Assembly (NCBI RefSeq): GCF_900109785.1
Contig: NZ_FOBH01000004.1
Span: 62,001-126,000 of the forward strand
From: Nitrosovibrio tenuis
GTDB taxonomy: Bacteria > Pseudomonadota > Gammaproteobacteria > Burkholderiales > Nitrosomonadaceae
Length of the DNA stretch: 64,000 bases
Direction: 5' to 3'
The stretch's first letter is position 1. Each line of letters begins with the position of its first letter. The position numbers and the translations under genes are program-made. Under the pieces are notes generated by a model, which was given only the letters and a program-made list of their open reading frames with translations, had not been told where the DNA came from and made no database searches. This document shows positions 5,846-52,655 of the stretch, in pieces.

Positions 5846-7948
5846 TCATTTAATTCTTTGAATTCCCTCAAAGAAATGATTAATTACGTAGTGATCAAAC
5901 CTGTCAAGATTTTTAACCGAAAGTTTTATAGACTGGGCACCACTTGCAAGAAATTGATCAATACAGTCGTGCAAACTCAGTGTTACATCGGCGAGATCGA
6001 TTAATCCAGCATGATGAATTTTTCTAGAGATCATTCGCGGCAAGCCATATTCTTCTAGCCTGAAAACGTTTGGTGGCAAGAATGCGAAGGACACTCTTGC
6101 TGCAAACGGCGAAATGTCTATAGCCGTCTTAGTGATCTTTCTATAGATTAAGTTAACGTCACTAAGCAGTGATGCCAAATTATGTGTGATCGTGCGCTCC
6201 AGTTTAAAAAATTCATCCAGACCTATATCATACTCATTTAGCTCTTCAAGCATCTCTGGAATGGTATTTGTCCAATTATTGCTGATGACCTTCATGAAGG
6301 CGACGATCTTGTGATGTTCAGTTCCCCAAATATCAGAGCGTAGCCGAATTGTCTTATATAGCAATCTGTCCCAGTCTTCTGGGTTTTCAGAATTCAGATA
6401 GCCAAGCCCATTCCAATCCTTTGCATTGCTATTGATTGCGCTGGCGATATCCCGAATGAGCGTCGAATTGCTACTCTGGAGTTCGTTGCCATTTAACAAC
6501 TCTGCGACGCTATCCTCATGTAATAACCCTCGCATCTCCTCCTTATACGCGGCAATCTTTGCGATCTGTTCAGGTGTTAGGTCCCTGGAATATTTCACTT
6601 CATCTATACTTCCAAGTAACTGATCAGGCAAGGTTAGCTCTAGCTGAGTATTGGTTGTGGCGGGTGGCTCTTCGAGAATATAGATCTTTCCCACAAAATG
6701 CCGAAACATGCGTGCGCCACGTCCGATGATATTTTTATACGTGAAGTCATCAAGTTTTGGATTCCCTCGTCCTCCCTTTTTATTGCTCCATATGACTATA
6801 TTTTCCGCTGAGGTATTTACCCCTTCAATAATGGAGGAGGTTGAGACGATAGTATCTAGGCCATCTGGGTCTTCGAACAGCCTTATTTGAATTTGGCTCA
6901 GAGATCGGTGGAGTTGACCGTTGTGTATGCCAACTCCCCGTTTCACTAGCTTTGTTAAGTGCCAGTTTCGACCGTAGTTTGTTGAAAGCCAGGCTTCAAA
7001 ATCATGAAGCCGCTCAAGTTCTAAGGTCGGAAGTTTGTCAATCAAAAGCGTGGAAAGACTACTAATGTTTGAATAGGTGGCGGCATAGACCAACGTTTTA
7101 CTTTTCGCAGACTGTAGTAGCTGTATCAAGAACTGACTTTTACGTTCCTCGTTCTTGCCCATTTGTCGGTAGAGCTCATGCTTTTCTAAGAACACGGTAT
7201 TAAAATTTACTAGTGCAAACTCCATCCCCTTGGTGAAGAAATTGCCTTTCAGGTCGGAAATATTTGGGGCGAGGAAATACTTCTGCTTGGCGATGTCGCC
7301 TAATCTCAGAATAGCCCGAAGTAAGGCTGGCGAACGTTCCTTATCAAATACGGGGCTTGCCTTATAGAATTCATCTATCACAAGCAGGTCCAAATCTTGG
7401 ATCAAGTTGGCATAATGAATTGCTCGCTCTTGTGGAAAAACAAGTATGTTTCTTTCCCCCAGAGGGACATCACCGGTTGTAATAATCTTGTATCGTCCCG
7501 AGAACTTTTGCTGAAGCCTTCTTCTTGTTTCATCGGTTAATGCTAGTGTCGGCACGATAATCACCACATTCTTCGGCTGCTTCAATGATATAAATGCATC
7601 GATGATGAAGCTCTTACCAAAGCTGGTAGGTGCGCTAACTGCTATATTCTTGCCATCGATCAGCTGTTTAAGAACGGAGGACTGTTCACGATGCAAAGTA
7701 ACTGGCAGTTCCAAACCAACATCGACCTTAAATGCTTCATACGCACATCTATCTTCCCACGTCGCGGTTTCGGTCTTGAGATAGGGATAGAGACCAGATC
7801 GTCTAATCAAACGATTCACGAGCTCTGAATAAGGAATTTGCGTTTTCTCTAGGTAATCCAAAAGTTGGATAAGCTTATCCCTAGCTTCGACTTCCCTATC
7901 GAGTTCAAAAAGATCGTTTACTCTTGAGCAGGTATCGAAAATGTCCAT
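5846..7948 (-). CDS. hamB: Hachiman helicase HamB
   Basis: Superfamily 2 helicase partner of HamA in the Hachiman anti-phage system, in which HamB senses abnormal DNA and controls the HamA nuclease. Of 700 residues, Walker A (SAPTSFGKS) lies at about 105-113, the motif II equivalent DEFYK at about 192-196, a threonine-containing motif at IVPTLALTDE (about 131-140), and a motif VI-like GRGARMF in the second half; the C-terminal third is helical and has no named domain. It starts 2 nt downstream of the hamA stop, a two-gene operon in the canonical order. The assignment rests on pairing with a DUF1837 gene; the helicase alone would be generic. Confidence 0.85.
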   Translation of the reverse strand: MDIFDTCSRVNDLFELDREVEARDKLIQLLDYLEKTQIPYSELVNRLIRRSGLYPYLKTETATWEDRCAYEAFKVDVGLELPVTLHREQSSVLKQLIDGKNIAVSAPTSFGKSFIIDAFISLKQPKNVVIIVPTLALTDETRRRLQQKFSGRYKIITTGDVPLGERNILVFPQERAIHYANLIQDLDLLVIDEFYKASPVFDKERSPALLRAILRLGDIAKQKYFLAPNISDLKGNFFTKGMEFALVNFNTVFLEKHELYRQMGKNEERKSQFLIQLLQSAKSKTLVYAATYSNISSLSTLLIDKLPTLELERLHDFEAWLSTNYGRNWHLTKLVKRGVGIHNGQLHRSLSQIQIRLFEDPDGLDTIVSTSSIIEGVNTSAENIVIWSNKKGGRGNPKLDDFTYKNIIGRGARMFRHFVGKIYILEEPPATTNTQLELTLPDQLLGSIDEVKYSRDLTPEQIAKIAAYKEEMRGLLHEDSVAELLNGNELQSSNSTLIRDIASAINSNAKDWNGLGYLNSENPEDWDRLLYKTIRLRSDIWGTEHHKIVAFMKVISNNWTNTIPEMLEELNEYDIGLDEFFKLERTITHNLASLLSDVNLIYRKITKTAIDISPFAARVSFAFLPPNVFRLEEYGLPRMISRKIHHAGLIDLADVTLSLHDCIDQFLASGAQSIKLSVKNLDRFDHYVINHFFEGIQRIK

Positions 7949-7949
7949 A

Positions 7950-8864
7950 TCAAGCTTTATGCTGTCCTACCTTGGTAACAAACCGGCTAATGATGGGGGC
8001 CTTATACGGAACGGGAAATAAAATAATGTGAAATCTAATCTCTGCGTATTTAAAAACATCTGAAAGACCTTTCACTTGTTTCTTGAAATATGCTGTTGCT
8101 CTCGATTTATGATAATCAGCAATCTGCTCCTTATATTTTTCAGTAAGTTCCTTTGCCTTCTGGGTAATTTCACATTCATGCAAAAGTAATATTGGAATAT
8201 TGATCTTTGGCTTTAGCTCATCCAGAGACCTACCCTGTGCGAGAGATTCCCTGATCCTCGTCTTGATTTCGCGATCTATATCGAGGTCTTCGATATCTGA
8301 GACGTTTGTGATAATCGTATTCTCTTTGCGAAGCTTGTCTGCATGAAGAGAATTCTTTACAGAGTCAACGATCCTTGACAGATTCGCATCCTCAATACAT
8401 TTGTAGAACTTCGCCTCCCCAAACCAAAGCGTGAAATCCCCATTTTTATGGATTACTATGTGAACGCTATCGGCGCCCTTTGCGTTGTCTTGTGAGTTTT
8501 GCTTGTAGAAAATCTTTGGAACTACGGGAAGCGCTTTGTAATGATGTTTCATTATTCCGTACAACACTATTTCAGCCAGTTCACTTCCTTTACCGATGTC
8601 ACCATCTTTGTCAGTCAATCTCAGGTTTTGTGCAGCTGCGTCAAGTAGTGAATTCTCTTTGCCTGCAAGGCAATTTCGTTCTCGAAGGGACAGCGCGGTT
8701 TCTTTGATGTTGTCCCAAATAAAATTATGAAATTTTTTCGCTCGCCATTCGCCATCTTCGAAGTCGTTGATCAGACTTAGGACAGATTTATTGCCAATCG
8801 GGCCCTCGAAACGTTCTTTAGCGACATTTGCGAACGAAGTATCAATCAAGACTTCGAATTCCAT
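7950..8864 (-). CDS. hamA: Hachiman effector nuclease HamA (DUF1837)
   Basis: DUF1837 protein, the nuclease effector of Hachiman. The PD-(D/E)xK-like core is visible: GADSVHIVIH (Asp132) and LWFGEAKFY (Glu150, Lys152), preceded by the conserved GKGSELAEIVLYGIM helix. I start it at ATG 8864 because AAAGGAG lies just upstream and the resulting 304 residues match the family; the frame is open to 9047, adding 61 residues that look unlike HamA. The segment 8865-9142 is then the probable promoter and leader region. In the published model HamAB degrades DNA after sensing damage to protect the population. Confidence 0.88.
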   Translation of the reverse strand: MEFEVLIDTSFANVAKERFEGPIGNKSVLSLINDFEDGEWRAKKFHNFIWDNIKETALSLRERNCLAGKENSLLDAAAQNLRLTDKDGDIGKGSELAEIVLYGIMKHHYKALPVVPKIFYKQNSQDNAKGADSVHIVIHKNGDFTLWFGEAKFYKCIEDANLSRIVDSVKNSLHADKLRKENTIITNVSDIEDLDIDREIKTRIRESLAQGRSLDELKPKINIPILLLHECEITQKAKELTEKYKEQIADYHKSRATAYFKKQVKGLSDVFKYAEIRFHIILFPVPYKAPIISRFVTKVGQHKA

Positions 8865-43292: not shown

Positions 43293-43369
<77 letters not shown>

Positions 43370-43730: not shown

Positions 43731-45011
43731 CTAACGTAACTGAAAAATATCAGAAGAACCCGAAGAATCTTGAAGACCCGATAGGGGGTTAGGAAAAGCA
43801 GGTCCTTCAAATAACATCGTCAGCAAAACGGCGGCAATAGGTGGCGCTACCGCATTGCCGATCATCTCGCGGAGAGCGGTAAGTTTCTTAATGGGAGCGA
43901 ACTTGAAGTAATCCGGAAAGCCTTGAATCCTTGCTGCCTCATGAGGGGTAATCATACGGCGCTGAGTTGGATGAACAAAACGACCTTGGCCCATAGAGCC
44001 AAACCCGCTGGTGATAGTTTGCGCGGGCAAGTCGGCTTGCAACCTTCCATACATGGACCGATAGGAATGTTGCTTTTCCCTGTGACAGGGTGGTCTTAAG
44101 TGGTTCGGCAAATCGAAGCGATTTGAAGCAAAAAGAAACATAATTCGTTGTTGGTTGCGGAGAGAGATTTTTGAACGCCTGCTGGAGAAATGAGCCAAAT
44201 CCTCGGATTCAGTTTCTAAATCACCAATAAAATCCCAAAGACGAATATTGTTCGGTCGTCGCGGAATTTTAGCAAAGAGTTGACCAAGCTCCTCTCCTGT
44301 ATGCATACGCGAAGCGATCAAAAAATGTCTTTTGCGCGTCTGGGGCAATCCAAAATCCTGTGCATCAGCGAGGAATTGAACAACAGAGTAACCTCCCGCA
44401 CTTAATGCCTCTAATGCAGCTGTCACAACTTGGCTAGTCGCGTGGATAACACTAGGGACATTTTCCACTACTATAACCTTTGCTTTTGTCTGTAGCCCAA
44501 AGGCCACGGGAACTGTATATAGCATGTTCCGCGGATCGTCCCTGCGGCTAGAGTTATTAAGATCGGAATGCCCCTGACAGGGCGGACCTGCTACCACTAC
44601 GTCTACCAACCCAGCGGCGTCGGCTAGCTTCAGCCCTAAGTTGGACAAATATAACGATTCGGGCCCCTTAACTATTAGCGACAAGTCTAACGTCGAGATA
44701 GTATCGAGCACCGAATGAAAGTTCGTTTGATAAACATCGTTGGCATCCGACCAAACATCTGCTGCTAATACAACTCTCAACTTCCGATCGAGCTGTAGAC
44801 AGGCGATTAGCGCGCCCAGCGTGAGGCCTCCGCAACCCGCGAATAGATCAACCACTCTTAACTCGGGAGCAGCCGTATTCAGCTTGGGCCAGTCCACTTT
44901 TCGGCATTCTATAGACCAATACCTTGAAGCCAACGTCTGCATCGCTTTGGCTTGTTGCTTCTCAATATCATGAAAAGTTAACTTATGTGATAACAAGATA
45001 CTTGAGGTCAC
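43731..45011 (-). CDS. DNA cytosine-C5 methyltransferase (element B defence operon)
   Basis: 426 residues. Motifs: I DLFAGCGGLTLG (55-66), IV AGPPCQGHSD with nucleophile Cys145, VI ENV (183-185), VIII QTRKR (224-228) and X GNAVAPP near the C-terminus. The region between VIII and X should hold the target-recognition part. It is the third gene of a DUF262-HEPN-methyltransferase operon and overlaps the HEPN stop by 4 nt. No conventional restriction endonuclease is adjacent, so the partners probably supply interference. Confidence 0.93.
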   Translation of the reverse strand: MTSSILLSHKLTFHDIEKQQAKAMQTLASRYWSIECRKVDWPKLNTAAPELRVVDLFAGCGGLTLGALIACLQLDRKLRVVLAADVWSDANDVYQTNFHSVLDTISTLDLSLIVKGPESLYLSNLGLKLADAAGLVDVVVAGPPCQGHSDLNNSSRRDDPRNMLYTVPVAFGLQTKAKVIVVENVPSVIHATSQVVTAALEALSAGGYSVVQFLADAQDFGLPQTRKRHFLIASRMHTGEELGQLFAKIPRRPNNIRLWDFIGDLETESEDLAHFSSRRSKISLRNQQRIMFLFASNRFDLPNHLRPPCHREKQHSYRSMYGRLQADLPAQTITSGFGSMGQGRFVHPTQRRMITPHEAARIQGFPDYFKFAPIKKLTALREMIGNAVAPPIAAVLLTMLFEGPAFPNPLSGLQDSSGSSDIFQLR

Positions 45012-45622
45012 TTGTAAGCCTTTAAGTTAAGAAAACCCTCAAAATCATAAATTACACGCTTTAACACGGCACTCGTCTTGTCGTGAAAGCTGCGTAATTG
45101 CTTTGCCGAATAATGTTTTCCGCAATCTGAAAAAGATTTAATTCCATGTGCAAGCTCGTTTCGTTCATGTTTTACTGTTTGTAAAACCGTTTCCTGGTAC
45201 TTATGAGTGCTCCGGACACCGAGGTGCTTAAGCGTCTCTTTAATCGTTTTGCAGTCTAAATTTCCAGAAAATACATCGGACCTATCAAAGCATGCCACTG
45301 CTAACCCCATTGCGGATGTTTGCATCTTTTCTACTAAGCTACTCGGTTTCCGCTTCTTACTATACCCAAGCACAAGTGTCTTCATCGTGGCGTTTAGCGA
45401 ATCGAATTCAACGTTATTCGAATGAAGATGATCAAAAACATCCTGAAGCAAATTTGTCATAGTCGATTCGATACAGTTGTAAATCATCAGTAAAGCCGAA
45501 GATTTCATAGTATTCATTATGCCGATGGGGAATCCGGTTTCCAACTCAAGAGTTTCGAGATGCAAAAGATACTCTTTAATTTCGCTCTCTCTTTTTTCAA
45601 ATTCGGCCTGAGCATTAAGCAT
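45008..45622 (-). CDS. HEPN-domain protein, probable RNase effector
   Basis: 204 residues, all helical. The C-terminal half has KHERNELAHGIKSFSDCG, the Rx4-6H motif (Arg154, Asn155, His159) that forms the active site of HEPN RNases. It resembles, from memory, the MAE_28990/MAE_18760-type HEPN family, often next to DUF262 and methylase genes. ATG shares one base with the DUF262 stop (TAATG) and its end overlaps the methylase start, so the three proteins should be made together. RNase activity is inferred. Confidence 0.78.
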   Translation of the reverse strand: MLNAQAEFEKRESEIKEYLLHLETLELETGFPIGIMNTMKSSALLMIYNCIESTMTNLLQDVFDHLHSNNVEFDSLNATMKTLVLGYSKKRKPSSLVEKMQTSAMGLAVACFDRSDVFSGNLDCKTIKETLKHLGVRSTHKYQETVLQTVKHERNELAHGIKSFSDCGKHYSAKQLRSFHDKTSAVLKRVIYDFEGFLNLKAYK

Positions 45623-46728
45623 TAGGCCTCCAGTAAACGGTCTCTGACATATTCGATTCGGCCCTTAAGTCTCGGTAAGGAATTGCTTGCGTCAGAGACA
45701 ACCTGGGCGCGGAATTCGTCCGAGTCGATCCATCTCTCAATAGAGTCTTTACTTGGGTTTAAATCGGGATTTATGCGTTGCGCAAGAGTAATTCCGCAGG
45801 CTAAGGCTTCAAAACGAACACGCGCTACACTAGAAGAATCTTTGCTTTTTCTAAAACCATAGGGGAAGTGGCTGTAAGCGAACTGGATCATCTTTAAGAA
45901 CTGCGAAAGCATCCTATCTCTTTCAAACTCTTGTTGGTGAGTCTTCAGATAATTGTCTAGAAAGTTTCGCACGTCATGTCGAAAACTCTGATAGGTATCG
46001 CTGTATGAAAAATATCTCAGCACAAGCTCTTCCGCCTCTTCCCTGCGCTGCCTTGAGTTAGAGATAGGACAAACGGTCTTAAACGCTGGGAGCGACGCAC
46101 ATTCCCGAATAAAATCATAAAAAGGCCCCGTGTAGATCCCTTTACGCTTTTCCATAGCCCGCAGCTCATCACTGCCGGTATTTATGCGCTCGAATATATC
46201 TCGCCGAATCTGTTCTGTTGCCCTGTCTGATAATTCGATAACGCGAATTCCTTGTCGTTTTATCTTACGTTGCCGCGAAACCTCAAGGTCGGAAAAGCGA
46301 AACCCATTAAGTTTCTCAAGCTTGTTCAATCCTGTTAGGCGCAAATCATCCTGTAGAAAGGCTGCGAGCGTTCTGATACGTTGTGAGCCGTCCACTATTT
46401 CTGCTCGACCCTCATCACTCAGTATGTCTTTCGGCAGCGTTGCAATAAAGATATAAGGAATAGGCAACTCAAGAATAATGGACTCGATAAATTTGCTCTT
46501 TCGATCATCGGTCCATACAAACGCACGCTGGTAGGTTGGAATAAAGATTTCGTTCTCATCCTCTTCTTTACCCTCCATGTACTTGTCCACGATTACTTCG
46601 ATCGTGAATTCCTTTGTTGAATAATCAACGTTGTGCTTCAACTCACGGATTTGTACTTCTGCAGCAAAACGCTCCTCTGTGGTGATCTCCTTTTGGCTAA
46701 TCTTCTTTTGTCGCACCGCGCTATTCAT
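45622..46728 (-). CDS. DUF262 (GmrS/SspE/BrxU-type) protein
   Basis: 368 residues with a DUF262 ParB-like domain: IPTYQRAFVW (63-72), IVDGSQR (111-117, Ser where most have Gln) and FERINTGSDEL (179-189). DUF262 domains hydrolyse nucleotides and drive modification-dependent defence proteins such as GmrSD, BrxU and SspE. No C-terminal HNH (DUF1524) domain is visible, so it probably needs a partner effector, the HEPN protein being the obvious candidate. First gene of the operon; the 296-bp gap to the replication gene (46729-47024) should hold the promoter. Confidence 0.87.
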   Translation of the reverse strand: MNSAVRQKKISQKEITTEERFAAEVQIRELKHNVDYSTKEFTIEVIVDKYMEGKEEDENEIFIPTYQRAFVWTDDRKSKFIESIILELPIPYIFIATLPKDILSDEGRAEIVDGSQRIRTLAAFLQDDLRLTGLNKLEKLNGFRFSDLEVSRQRKIKRQGIRVIELSDRATEQIRRDIFERINTGSDELRAMEKRKGIYTGPFYDFIRECASLPAFKTVCPISNSRQRREEAEELVLRYFSYSDTYQSFRHDVRNFLDNYLKTHQQEFERDRMLSQFLKMIQFAYSHFPYGFRKSKDSSSVARVRFEALACGITLAQRINPDLNPSKDSIERWIDSDEFRAQVVSDASNSLPRLKGRIEYVRDRLLEA

Positions 46729-47024: not shown

Positions 47025-49028
47025 TTATTGACAGTACTCCAAGGGTTCAGGCTTAGCCGGATGTAGCGGAATTATTGCAGCGCTTATATCCGCAAGCTCC
47101 GAAAGCTCAGCCGATTTTTCTTGCTTACTCCCATCGCATTTGCGCCTGATAGTCCATTGGTGAATCCGGGTAGGGAATATGGCGCTTGCCCAAGCTATCC
47201 CAATGATTTCCTCGCCCTTGGGCTCCCTGTAACGGTTGGGCTCGTCATTCCATTGCTTAGCCAGTGATATCGGGAAATCCTTGCGTTTCGCTTGCGGTCC
47301 GCCCATCAGCATCACATATCGGTCCCATTCGCCTTTATCCGCCGCTTCCCTAAGCTCTTTCAGTTCTCCGGTTACTCCCATCTCACCCATACGGCGTAGC
47401 TCCCGCCATACCGTTACAGGCGGTCCACCAATCTGCTGGAATTGCCGTATGCCCCAAGTACTGGCCCACACTCTTACACGCTCGGCTGCGGTTTCGGGGT
47501 TTCCGCCATCAATATCGCTATCCAAGCCAAACCCATCGATATTTTTGGAAATGTATTTGGCGATATAACCAGCCGCACTCCCCTTTGTTCTGTCTATGCG
47601 TTCTTCCTTATAACGATGCTCTGCTGCGCCGCGCTCGTCGCCATCCTCGCGCATCGCGTAGTCACGGATAATGCTGCCAACCTTTTCGATGTTTTCCTTC
47701 GGCATGAACAGTAACAAGTGCCAATGCGGTGTGCCGTCGTGTTGAGGCTCGGCAACGCGAAAACCATAAACATTTATTCCCATACGGTGCAGCTTGGCTG
47801 GTATCTGAGTCCAAAGCTTTGCCAGATAGGCTTGCGCTTCTCTTGGTGTAGTTTTGTCGTATTTTGGGTTTTCTTCGCCTGTTGCGGATAACCTCGCATG
47901 CATGCGCGAAGGGCAAGTGGCAGTGTAGAACATCGCGTCATGCCCAAGGGATTGCGCAACGGCGTCGAAACCAGCAATGCGGGTCATCAATTCAGCACGG
48001 CGTATCTTGGGGTTCGATACCGACAGCTCGGCTAATTGCTGTAAGGTGTATTCCTCGCCCAGCTCATTGGTGGCGATACAGTGTTCGAGAACCGCGTGGT
48101 TACGCCGGACCCGTCTGCGCCGCCTGTTCAGCGTTTCATCGCTGACGTATTTTCCCTTGCGTCTGTGAACCAATCCTAACCGAATCGCCGCATGCTCGAA
48201 TTTGCGTATATGAACCTTGCGCAGTGCTCGCCGCCACCAATACTCATCCGCAAGTCGGGCTAGAATTCCTGTAGGGGTAATTCCTGTATCGGTAACGGTT
48301 ACAGGAAGGGGAGAAGCGGATTTTCCTGTTACCGTTACAGGAGCTTGGCTGTCTGTAACAGATACCGTTACAGGGAAAGCAGAGGTTTTCCTTTCCACTA
48401 AAGAAACAGGCTGTCTGCCTGTATCGGCTACCATTACAGATACAGATGTAGGGAGATCAATTTCGCTATCTCTATCCGTTACTGATACGGGAAACTGCTC
48501 AGTGCTTTTTTCTCCTGTTACCGGTATCGATACCGATACCGATACCGATACAGCGGACAGAGGGTTTCTTCTTACCGCTTCCGTTACAGCTACGGACAAG
48601 GGTGTTGCTGACAGAGAAACCGTCATACCTGTTTTACCCAGTGGGGTAGCGACTCCATATTTCCTTTCTGCCAGATGGCAGAGAAATGGGGCTGCGATTG
48701 CGGGACTGCTAAACCAGCGTTGCAGGCGGAAGAATTGATCAGCTACCTTTCCGGCAAAAACATCTATTTCCTCATCCGTTGCCGAAAGGCTTAAAGGGGT
48801 GCTGACAAGCTGATCGGAAATTGCCGCAAGGTATGCCTCTGCCTTCTCTTCCCCTTGAGCCTGATACAGCCGGGCATACTCGTTTGCCATAGGCTCCGCC
48901 AGGCAGTCTGGATGTAGGCTGAGAGGGGAAGTGAAGGGTTCCTCTTCCTCTTCACCATAGAAGGCAATGTCGTCTTCCCAGTCGTACGCGTTTTCCGAAT
49001 ACGGCGTACGCCGTGCAATCGCGCTCAT
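47025..49028 (-). CDS. GpA-type HUH replication endonuclease of element B
   Basis: From ATG 49028 (overlapping the alpA stop by 4 nt, as in element A) 667 residues; the open frame to 49064 is not preferred. HUH motif [10 protein letters not shown] and tyrosine pair YIAKYISKN are present. It is near-identical to the element A protein over the catalytic part but differs in the N-terminal 35 residues, in the number of VT-type repeats (it has an extra block with [20 protein letters not shown]) and in the C-terminal tail. Confidence 0.85.
48265..48605. repeat. VT-coding near-palindromic repeats inside the replication gene (element B)
   Basis: Same unit family as in element A: GTATCGGTAACGGTTACAGG, TCCTGTTACCGTTACAGGA and a run of GATACCGATACCGATAC at about 48529-48550. 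There are more units than in element A, and all stay in frame. Confidence 0.75.
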
Positions 49029-49228
49029 TTGCGGCCCGTATCGCTGGTGGACCTGCGAATGCAAGACTCGATATAGCGTTCCAAGTCTTGCAGCCTGTAG
49101 CGCACTGCTCGGGAGCCGATCTTGATGAATGGCACCTTCGCTCCGGCCCAGCGGTCGCGTTCAAGGAACGCTTCACTGACGCCCAGGCATAAAGCGGCTT
49201 CTTTGGTATTAAGTAAATTCTGTTGCAT
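49025..49228 (-). CDS. AlpA-like helix-turn-helix regulator of element B
   Basis: 67 residues from ATG 49228 ([20 protein letters not shown]); the open frame to 49285 is not supported. From [16 protein letters not shown] onward it is almost the same as the element A protein. Likely excisionase or int/rep activator; overlaps the replication gene by 4 nt. The 384-bp gap to the next gene (49229-49612) is AT-rich, with a TTTTTTTAT/ATAAATTTTTT stretch near 49531-49555, and presumably carries divergent promoters. Confidence 0.85.
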
Positions 49229-49612
49229 GCTTCTGTCCCCACAAGTTGTTAAAAGGCGGAGAAAGAATGCGATAAATTGGAGCAAGAAGGAACGTCCTGT
49301 TACAGTCTATTGACAAATGAAGGGTTTTGTGTGGAAAACCTAAATGAAGAGGAAATAAATATATCCATTTGATTTATCATCGTTTCTACATCTGAGAGAT
49401 TGACGTATGGCTTGTAGTTGACGTAAAAACAACAGTCTTTTGGCAACTCAAAGTCACCCTAATTTCGGATACTTTTGAAAAAGAGGCATTAATCCCCTTT
49501 TATTCGAAGCTTAAAAGCGACTTTTTCGTAAAAAAAATAAATTTTTTATCAAAAAAATCGAATACGGGGCTTAAGCTAGCGACACAAAATTTTGGAAAGG
49601 ATTAGGTGCAGA

Positions 49613-49997: not shown

Positions 49998-51023
49998 TTA
50001 TGCGTAGTGTTCGTGCGCCCGGAACAGGTACGAAAACGCGCCAACATTAACTGCCTCCGGGCTTTCCAGTCCCAAAATGGAACCAGCTCCTGCAAGGGCT
50101 GCGCCAAGGAGATCACCCGAGGCCGCGGTCCACATTGCTCCCGTGAAGGCAAGCGCAAAGGACGCAGGTTTTCTCCATGCCTTTCGGGACCTTCGCTTCA
50201 GCTCGCTTGCCATCTTGTCTAATTGCGCTTGTCGATCCTCAAATGCAAGCTCCTTTTGTTCCTTCGACATACGGCTGAGCTCGTAAGCGAATCGGCGCAC
50301 CGACCGCCGATACTCCGTGAATGCGTCACTATTCTCGCGTCGAAATGCGAGAACCTCATCGATTGGAACGGGACCCAAATCTACCATGACGGTATTAAGA
50401 TCAAACGTGATTACCTGGCCGTGAGACGGGGCAGTGGGCAGCGACAGCATATCTGCGAGAGCAGCGATAAGAAGTGGCCGATCTGTCACGGGTTCTAGGC
50501 TAACGTTCCGGTTGGCTCCGTATTGCCGCAATATTTGCGAAAGAAGGGTCAGAATAAGCGATCGCACCATGGGATGCATCGGAATGGAACGCCCGTCCTC
50601 GGTATCGCGTGCCAGTCCTCGTTTCTTAAGTTGCCCGAATATCATGTCTGCAAGCTTCTCATCGCCATAATACCCAAGGCGTGATCGCGATAATGCATCG
50701 AACGCTGTGGAATCCTTTGCGAGCGAGTCAAGCGCCCCGGAGACGATAATGTCGGAGAGAATATATCCAAGTTGCTCCGTCGCCTCCTTTCCAACTGCTT
50801 CTTCGGCCTTGATGACGTGGAGGAGACCATGCTTTTCAAGTCCCACAACAATCGCAGGATCAAAATGCTCAAGCTTGTCTTGCATGTACTCGGGAACAAG
50901 GAGAGCAATTCCGTCGAAGAACAAGATTAAATTCTTCACCCAGTCTCCGCGTTTCCAGATCGGATTCGGGTAATAGAAGGCGAGTTCGGGTAAATCTGGC
51001 TTCGATGTCACAGTAATGTCCAA
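49998..51023 (-). CDS. Unknown 341-residue protein with hydrophobic C-terminus, element B cargo
   Basis: I do not recognise a named family. Features: an N-terminal FYYPNPIWKRGDWVKNLILF segment, a helical middle, a charged probable coiled coil (residues about 240-285, RMSKEQKELAFEDRQAQLDK) and an Ala/Gly-rich hydrophobic segment (FALAFTGAMWTAASGDLLGA then ALAGAGSILGL) near the end. It occupies the slot between alpA and integrase. A membrane-acting or defence role is possible but not shown. Confidence 0.6.
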   Translation of the reverse strand: MDITVTSKPDLPELAFYYPNPIWKRGDWVKNLILFFDGIALLVPEYMQDKLEHFDPAIVVGLEKHGLLHVIKAEEAVGKEATEQLGYILSDIIVSGALDSLAKDSTAFDALSRSRLGYYGDEKLADMIFGQLKKRGLARDTEDGRSIPMHPMVRSLILTLLSQILRQYGANRNVSLEPVTDRPLLIAALADMLSLPTAPSHGQVITFDLNTVMVDLGPVPIDEVLAFRRENSDAFTEYRRSVRRFAYELSRMSKEQKELAFEDRQAQLDKMASELKRRSRKAWRKPASFALAFTGAMWTAASGDLLGAALAGAGSILGLESPEAVNVGAFSYLFRAHEHYA

Positions 51024-51225: not shown

Positions 51226-52455
51226 TTATGAAGCATATGAACGAATGCTTCCAAGTATGTGATCGGTGATCCGCTGCATGGGCTCCCTCAACCGCTCCAC
51301 ATCATTGACAATATAGCCCGCAGTGACGTCGCTGCTCATTTTGTGATTCACAAGCCGCTTTATAGCATAAGCGGAAATGTCGATACTTTCAGCAATGGTG
51401 ATATAGCTCCGCCTTAGATCATGAAGCGTAAACGAGACTTCGGATGCTTCAATCACTTTTTGAACTTGAGTACGAGGCTCAACCAAATATCCGCTCTTTC
51501 CCTTTCCTTCAAAAACATAATCAGAATCTGATGTAGCTTTCCTATTCTGCAAAAGGTCGTAGAGGAAATCCGTTAGTGGCAAGGTCAATGGTTGTCGGTT
51601 TTTAGTATCACTGATTGTAATCGACCGACCTCCTAGATCGACGTCGGACCATTTTAACGTTGCCGCTTCCTTACGGCGCAATCCTGTAAACAACAAGAAA
51701 AGCAGATAATCGGCAACAAGGGCAGACTGTTGCGAGTAATTGTCATTTTTAAGCGACACGACGCCTCGATACCATTGGGCAAGTTGGTGAGGTTTTATGA
51801 CCGTCTGGCGTCGCCCGACTCGATACCATGCACGGGTTTGTGTAAGTCGCACAACCGGGTTTTCTCGCAAAATGGAATTACCGTTGCCATCCTCGTATTG
51901 CGCGAGCGCGAAATTGAACAATGCCCGTAAAAAGCGCATGGCTAAGTTAGCGTAAGCTTCGCCGTTTTCTGTGCCCATCTTGGTATGACGTTTGGCAATC
52001 ATCTCCTTGCTGATGTCAACCAGAGGTTTATTTTGCCAATCAAGGAAAGCAACTTTCATTAGCCGCTTGTAATCGTAAAGTGTGCGCGGCTTGAGGCTCT
52101 TTCTCGCAAGGAGGAAATCATCGAAGGCTTTTTGTAGTGTTGTGGCTTGCAGTTCCTTTTGCTTCTTTTCCGCAATAGGATTGCTTCCAACAGCAATCTG
52201 ACCTAGCAGCTTATGAGCTTCCTTTCTGGCTTGCTCTACAGTCAATTCGGGATATCGGCCAAGGGTAAGCCGTTTTACTTTGCCGTCGATACGTTTTTCC
52301 AAAATGAACGACTTGGCGCCAGAGGTAGTAATGCGGACCGCGAAACCCTTGAGTTCGGAATCGCGGGTAAAGGTCTGCCCAGCTACGGGGGCATTCAACC
52401 TATCCACGACAGATTTTGTGATCCTAACCGGAATTGCTGAGGCGGGTGTAGACAC
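51226..52455 (-). CDS. int: P4-type tyrosine integrase of element B
   Basis: 409 residues: N-terminal DUF4102-like domain (TKSVVDRLNAPVAGQTFTRD), core-binding domain, and catalytic residues in LLFTGLRRKEA (Arg), FTLHDLRRSYI (His, Arg), LVNHK (His) and DVTAGYI (Tyr). Clearly homologous to the element A integrase but diverged, consistent with a different tRNA target. It ends normally after PMQRITDHILGSIRSYAS without the repeat-encoded tail. Confidence 0.92.
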   Translation of the reverse strand: MSTPASAIPVRITKSVVDRLNAPVAGQTFTRDSELKGFAVRITTSGAKSFILEKRIDGKVKRLTLGRYPELTVEQARKEAHKLLGQIAVGSNPIAEKKQKELQATTLQKAFDDFLLARKSLKPRTLYDYKRLMKVAFLDWQNKPLVDISKEMIAKRHTKMGTENGEAYANLAMRFLRALFNFALAQYEDGNGNSILRENPVVRLTQTRAWYRVGRRQTVIKPHQLAQWYRGVVSLKNDNYSQQSALVADYLLFLLFTGLRRKEAATLKWSDVDLGGRSITISDTKNRQPLTLPLTDFLYDLLQNRKATSDSDYVFEGKGKSGYLVEPRTQVQKVIEASEVSFTLHDLRRSYITIAESIDISAYAIKRLVNHKMSSDVTAGYIVNDVERLREPMQRITDHILGSIRSYAS

Positions 52456-52608: not shown

Positions 52609-52655
52609 ATTCGTAATCAGTAGGTCGGAGGTTCGACTCCTCTCAACAGCACCAA
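52609..52655 (+). repeat. attR of element B (tRNA-Thr 3' fragment)
   Basis: 47-bp exact copy of the tRNA-Thr 3' part without a 5' half; not a functional tRNA. Confidence 0.93.

Follow-up and report, generated by a model that had tools for sequence, protein, structure and literature searches.

Three overlapping genes on an integrative element

The analysed DNA, called the window below, is a stretch of 64,000 nucleotides of Nitrosovibrio tenuis (contig NZ_FOBH01000004.1, positions 62,001 to 126,000). It contains three ORFs on the minus strand which overlap in series and encode, in this order, a DUF262 protein, a HEPN protein and a C5-cytosine methylase. The Pfam matches of all three proteins were far above the curated cut-offs:

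45622-46728, minus strand: DUF262 / GmrSD_N (ParB-like fold) protein, predicted NTPase sensor; 368 aa; PF03235, E = 4e-26
45008-45622, minus strand: MAE_28990-type HEPN protein, predicted RNase effector; 204 aa; PF18737, E = 1e-22, and PF18735, E = 2e-10
43731-45011, minus strand: C5-cytosine DNA methyltransferase; 426 aa, GTG start; PF00145, E = 2e-45, and TIGR00675, E = 9e-39

The DUF262 and HEPN genes overlap by 1 nt (TAATG) and the HEPN and methylase genes by 4 nt (GTGA). An earlier, sequence-only reading of the locus had given both overlap lengths and the first junction correctly, but the second junction as ATGA. The methylase gene starts with GTG at position 45011, and its first in-frame ATG follows 23 codons further on.

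The translations contain all the motifs that this reading had described as intact. In the DUF262 protein these are YQR (residues 66-68), VDGSQR (112-117) and FERINTG (179-185), and residues Y66-Q67-R68, D113-G114, Q116-R117, R181 and N183 were invariant in an alignment of 45 homologues. The AlphaFold2 model of the protein (pLDDT 91) had BrxU as its top match among PDB folds, followed by ParB-family proteins with CTP analogues or CDP, and a phmmer search against PDB sequences gave no useful match. From its model, the DUF262 protein is predicted to be a ParB/BrxU-like NTP-binding protein. The HEPN protein (81.7 bits against PF18737, cut-off 26.8) carries an intact RNxxxH motif (R154-N155-x3-H159), and R154, N155, H159 and G160 were invariant across 47 aligned homologues; the invariant motif suggests that the protein cuts RNA. 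Its AlphaFold2 model (pLDDT 94) had no significant match among PDB folds in a Foldseek search, known HEPN proteins appearing only at E values of 1 or more; phmmer against the PDB gave nothing useful, and a single-sequence scan of genome contigs retrieved zero relatives. The methylase, the sole PF00145 match in its genome, contains the motifs DLFAGCGG, GPPCQG, ENVP, QTRKRH, HEAARIQGFP and GNAV. A Dcm-like (CCWGG) assignment was dropped, as its target domain is unlike that of E. coli Dcm.

As the sequence-only reading had stated, there is no DUF1524 nuclease: a Pfam search of the DUF262 protein gave DUF262 only, and none of the operon's proteins had a recognised DNase domain (DUF1524, PD-(D/E)XK or HNH) in Pfam. 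Pfam and TIGR00675-type family searches of the three proteins also revealed no endonuclease domain that could represent a cognate type II restriction endonuclease.

The trio is the cargo of a 9.3-kb integrative element bounded by perfect 47-bp repeats, one copy of which lies in tRNA-Thr, and has an integrase, in agreement with its earlier description as cargo of a tRNA-integrated element:

43293-43368, plus strand: tRNA-Thr (CGT), integration target (ARAGORN)
43323-43369, plus strand: left att repeat, 47 bp, perfect direct repeat, in the 3' half of tRNA-Thr (CGT)
47025-49064, minus strand: Phage_GPA-type replication initiator (Rep); PF05840, E = 5e-87; phrog_91, E = 5e-166
49025-49285, minus strand: small excisionase/regulator-like protein; phrog_66, E = 3e-6
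49998-51023: protein of the element, weakly similar to DUF6236 (E = 0.001, under the cut-off); no PADLOC or PHROG match
51226-52455, minus strand: tyrosine integrase of the element; PF00589, PF13356; phrog_1 integrase
52609-52655, plus strand: right att repeat, 47 bp, perfect direct repeat

Comparison with relatives revealed no empty integration site, the right flank not being conserved among them. A related element is present in the same genome (L283, contig C13, 11190-18930), whose integrase is 85% identical at the protein level and whose Rep region is about 78% identical at the DNA level. Its cargo slot adjoining Rep contains kwaA and kwaB (Kiwa) and a DUF7946/DUF7947 gene, so that the slot of both elements looks like one that holds defence genes. 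A TumE-like toxin gene adjoins the integrase of this sister element, and both Rep genes contain short degenerate in-frame repeats (PVTVT-like; window 48200-48740, L283 14870-14986).

Conservation of the gene pair and exchange of the methylase

A DUF262 alignment was used to scan one genome per GTDB species, which yielded 463 relatives, and the best 80 of these were fetched. The HEPN gene was located immediately downstream of the DUF262 gene in 79 of these best 80 of 463 loci, the remaining locus being cut by a contig end; the HEPN protein was used neither in this search nor in that of IMG/VR, but the DUF262 query set had been picked beside HEPN genes. A C5 methylase was present in 70 of the same 80 loci: 41 were convergent downstream, 26 upstream codirectional, two downstream codirectional as in the window and one otherwise arranged. 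Among IMG/VR viral contigs, many of whose loci are near-copies of each other, HEPN was found in 80 of 80 and the methylase in 75 of 80. Starting from the other partner, a sample of 299 Pseudomonadota genomes contained nine PF18737 genes above the cut-off, each of which adjoined a DUF262 gene.

The triplet, which had been noted at a single locus, thus recurs widely. It was found in Pseudomonadota, Cyanobacteriota, Bacteroidota, Acidobacteriota, Verrucomicrobiota and Campylobacterota, on prophages, on plasmids and, in many phyla, on chromosomal contigs; named carriers include plasmids of Klebsiella, Roseomonas and Rhodococcus, a P2-like phage and Moraxella phages. Because of this recurrence across many phyla, the arrangement is well beyond chance. 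On pTi932, a pTi plasmid of Rhizobium tumorigenes (L214, 2980-6366), the DUF262, HEPN and C5 methylase genes precede vsr, which encodes a mismatch endonuclease.

The three proteins do not diverge in the same way. In 120 non-redundant trios, the Spearman correlation of identities was 0.76 for DUF262 and HEPN and 0.13 for DUF262 and methylase, values which are descriptive only because the pairs are not independent. The DUF262 tree shows at least 14 changes of methylase class, and the window itself belongs to a well-supported group of five rows with three methylase lineages. An example is provided by loci L050 and L061, whose DUF262 proteins are 79% and HEPN proteins 75% identical, whereas their methylases share 29%; the methylase lineage differs here without a localised change in DUF262 or HEPN. 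Exchange also crosses the C5 class, as remoter relatives possess a methylase of the N4/N6 type (L213 from Roseomonas; L273 and L275 from the window's genus) or of the Eco57I type (L269) instead. In L269 (384-5174), the latter methylase has an HSDR_N domain and overlaps the DUF262 gene, which is followed by the HEPN gene. This arrangement is a type IIG-like form of the operon.

DUF262-HEPN pairs without an adjoining methylase occur as well (e.g., L087, L109, L114, L119 and L120), including pairs on E. coli plasmids (L210 and L212). A close methylase copy elsewhere in the genome was not found in six genomes with such pairs, which indicates that a linked methylase is not essential. The methylase-free cyanobacterial loci L109, L111 and L114 share a conserved convergent neighbour of 226 aa (about 7830-8650), which is without a match in Pfam and could not be recognised as a methylase. 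In summary, sequence comparison identifies DUF262 and HEPN as a constant two-protein core whose members diverge together and beside which methylases have repeatedly replaced one another.

The C5 methylases of the trios clustered into four lineages. We compared their target-recognition regions after matching for identity in the catalytic part, using 30 Pseudomonadota methylases as controls. Between lineages 1 to 3 the identity of this region was 0.29, compared to 0.17 for trio versus control and 0.17 for control versus control; this common target domain is suggestive and no proof, because a few of the 30 Pseudomonadota controls also carry the lineage-1 domain. For lineage 4 (L047, L048 and L202) the value was 0.21 and the region looked unrelated by eye, with the DUF262 protein of L047 still 64% identical to that of the window. 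The sequences are therefore suggestive of most methylase swaps having retained one kind of target domain, which would follow if just some methylation specificities were compatible with the pair. Against strict site matching stand lineage 4 and the finding that sequence comparison of DUF262 and HEPN revealed no localised specificity region varying with the methylase.

Proposed mechanism and alternatives

The trio very probably functions in defence, for which Kiwa in the slot of the sister element provides independent support. In the mechanism that we propose, the C5 methyltransferase, given its intact motifs, would mark host DNA as self, and the DUF262 protein would bind incoming DNA devoid of the methyl mark. 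An NTP-driven change in its shape would then activate the adjacent HEPN protein, which would cleave RNA and halt growth ahead of phage release. The methylase would be an exchangeable self-marking module beside the constant DUF262-HEPN core. We give this full scheme, a mobile anti-phage (or anti-plasmid) operon resembling restriction-modification but with an abortive effector, an even chance of being right. The reading in which an RNase is the restriction arm, with unmarked DNA read by a ParB-like NTPase clamp that triggers the HEPN RNase and aborts the infection, and with the pair conserved and the methylase replaced by C5 and non-C5 enzymes alike, is tentative, its chances falling a little short of even.

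We favour this explanation because of the operon overlaps, the intact motifs, the nearly constant linkage of HEPN and the frequent presence of a methylase, which recurs despite changed chemistry (N4/N6 and Eco57I types). Further arguments are the common target domain of lineages 1 to 3, the trio's place as cargo of the element, Kiwa occupying the corresponding slot of the sister, the resemblance of the DUF262 model to BrxU and ParB CTP/CDP complexes, and the DUF262-HEPN system PD-T4-2, which protects E. coli from T4 according to Vassallo et al. (2022; PMC9519451). Against it speak the methylase-free pairs, the target domain of lineage 4, the methylase swap between L050 and L061 without a change in the pair, and the HEPN model without a significant PDB match. 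In addition, type IV relatives of DUF262 recognise modified DNA (PMC10952713), which is the opposite logic. Since the methylase evolves apart from the pair and is missing at some loci, strict gating of self against non-self by the window's methylase is something that we infer.

The constancy of HEPN also bears on an alternative in which the DUF262 protein, or a complex containing it, cleaves unmethylated DNA and HEPN serves as a PrrC-like backup RNase that is freed only when a phage blocks restriction. The DUF262 protein does match the PADLOC model of a type II REase (E = 3e-10), nuclease activity has been reported for proteins of the ParB/Srx fold (PMC4619093), and Anantharaman et al. (2013) name the partner a 'ParB nuclease' and propose a PrrC-like HEPN guard in restriction-modification operons (PMC3710099). 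One would, however, predict frequent loss of a backup part, whereas HEPN occurs in 79 of the best 80 of 463 loci and is steadier than the methylase; together with the lack of a recognised DNase domain in the operon, this makes modification-gated DNA cleavage unlikely.

It is likewise improbable that the DUF262-HEPN pair acts in abortive infection independently of methylation, sensing another phage cue as PD-T4-2 may do, with the methylase hitch-hiking or protecting the element. The methylase-free pairs among our loci and on E. coli plasmids, the phylogenetic decoupling of the methylase, and PD-T4-2 itself, reported as DUF262 plus HEPN of the family PF18735 that the window's HEPN also matches, would fit such a function. 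However, the methylase is kept in about 90% of the loci of the subfamily and in three gene arrangements, and other methylase classes substitute for it in remoter relatives, a pattern that random hitch-hiking does not predict.

A selfish addiction module, in which a HEPN toxin is held by DUF262 and/or methylation so that loss kills the host and the element is stabilised, would suit the presence of the trio on integrative elements, on plasmids and in prophages and the HEPN toxins that PMC3710099 describes within toxin-antitoxin systems, but is very unlikely in view of the chromosomal trios in many phyla and the Kiwa system in the sister slot, although addiction and defence are mutually compatible roles.

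Relation to known systems

The association itself is not new. In Anantharaman et al. (2013; PMC3710099), the MAE_28990 HEPN family is already entered as occurring 'in operon with a ParB nuclease and DNA methylase genes', and a back-up role of RNases within restriction-modification operons is argued for. The three kinds of genes, the HEPN family and the conserved HEPN motif (Rx4-6H; R154/H159 in the window) are the same; in the text consulted, the entry is one line of a table with neither a tested mechanism nor a system name, and methylase exchange, the common target domain and methylase-free pairs do not appear there. As far as the consulted literature shows, the exchange and the common target domain are additions to that description. 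The sequence-only reading had seen a candidate little-described defence system whose novelty was to be checked; novelty of composition has to be given up in view of the 2013 paper and of DUF262-HEPN pairs among tested systems (PD-T4-2); the conserved operon, its very probable role in defence and a functional link of methylation to the DUF262-HEPN pair stand. In the literature searched, we found no later work on a DUF262-HEPN-methylase system and neither biochemistry nor a phage assay on the trio.

Among tested systems, PD-T4-2 likewise consists of a DUF262 protein and a HEPN protein, the latter of the PF18735 type (PMC10952713), but unlike the window trio it has no methylase in the sources available. 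PD-T4-2_A scored 116 bits on the window's DUF262 protein, below NsnA with 193 bits, the best PADLOC match, and PD-T4-2_B did not match the window's HEPN. PADLOC contained no model for this HEPN and none covering the trio as a system.

The gene names NsnA and NsnB presumably denote the Menshen system. In a clear NsnA-NsnB pair (L211), NsnA scores 362 bits and the ATPase NsnB adjoins, whereas the partner of the window's DUF262 protein is HEPN; NsnB is absent beside it (the neighbours being HEPN and Rep) and has no strong match in the genome. The methylase had DruM2 of Druantia as its best PADLOC match, and no other Druantia gene was found among the scanned neighbours (DUF262, HEPN, Rep, the DUF6236-like protein and the integrase). 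GmrSD, BrxU and SspE share the DUF262 domain and the predicted fold, with BrxU as the top PDB match, but the window trio differs from them by having no DUF1524 nuclease and by its own methylase and HEPN effector.

Based on the 2013 listing, PD-T4-2 and the likeness to NsnA and PD-T4-2_A in PADLOC, we regard the window trio as a member of a known, uncharacterised association, which is widespread although PADLOC has no system model for it. The modular methylase makes the gating model directly testable. With type II restriction-modification, the trio shares a linked DNA methyltransferase with intact motifs (PF00145, TIGR00675), but it differs in having no recognisable endonuclease and an RNase as its predicted effector; if methylation state gates this RNase, the logic of restriction-modification would be joined here to abortive infection.
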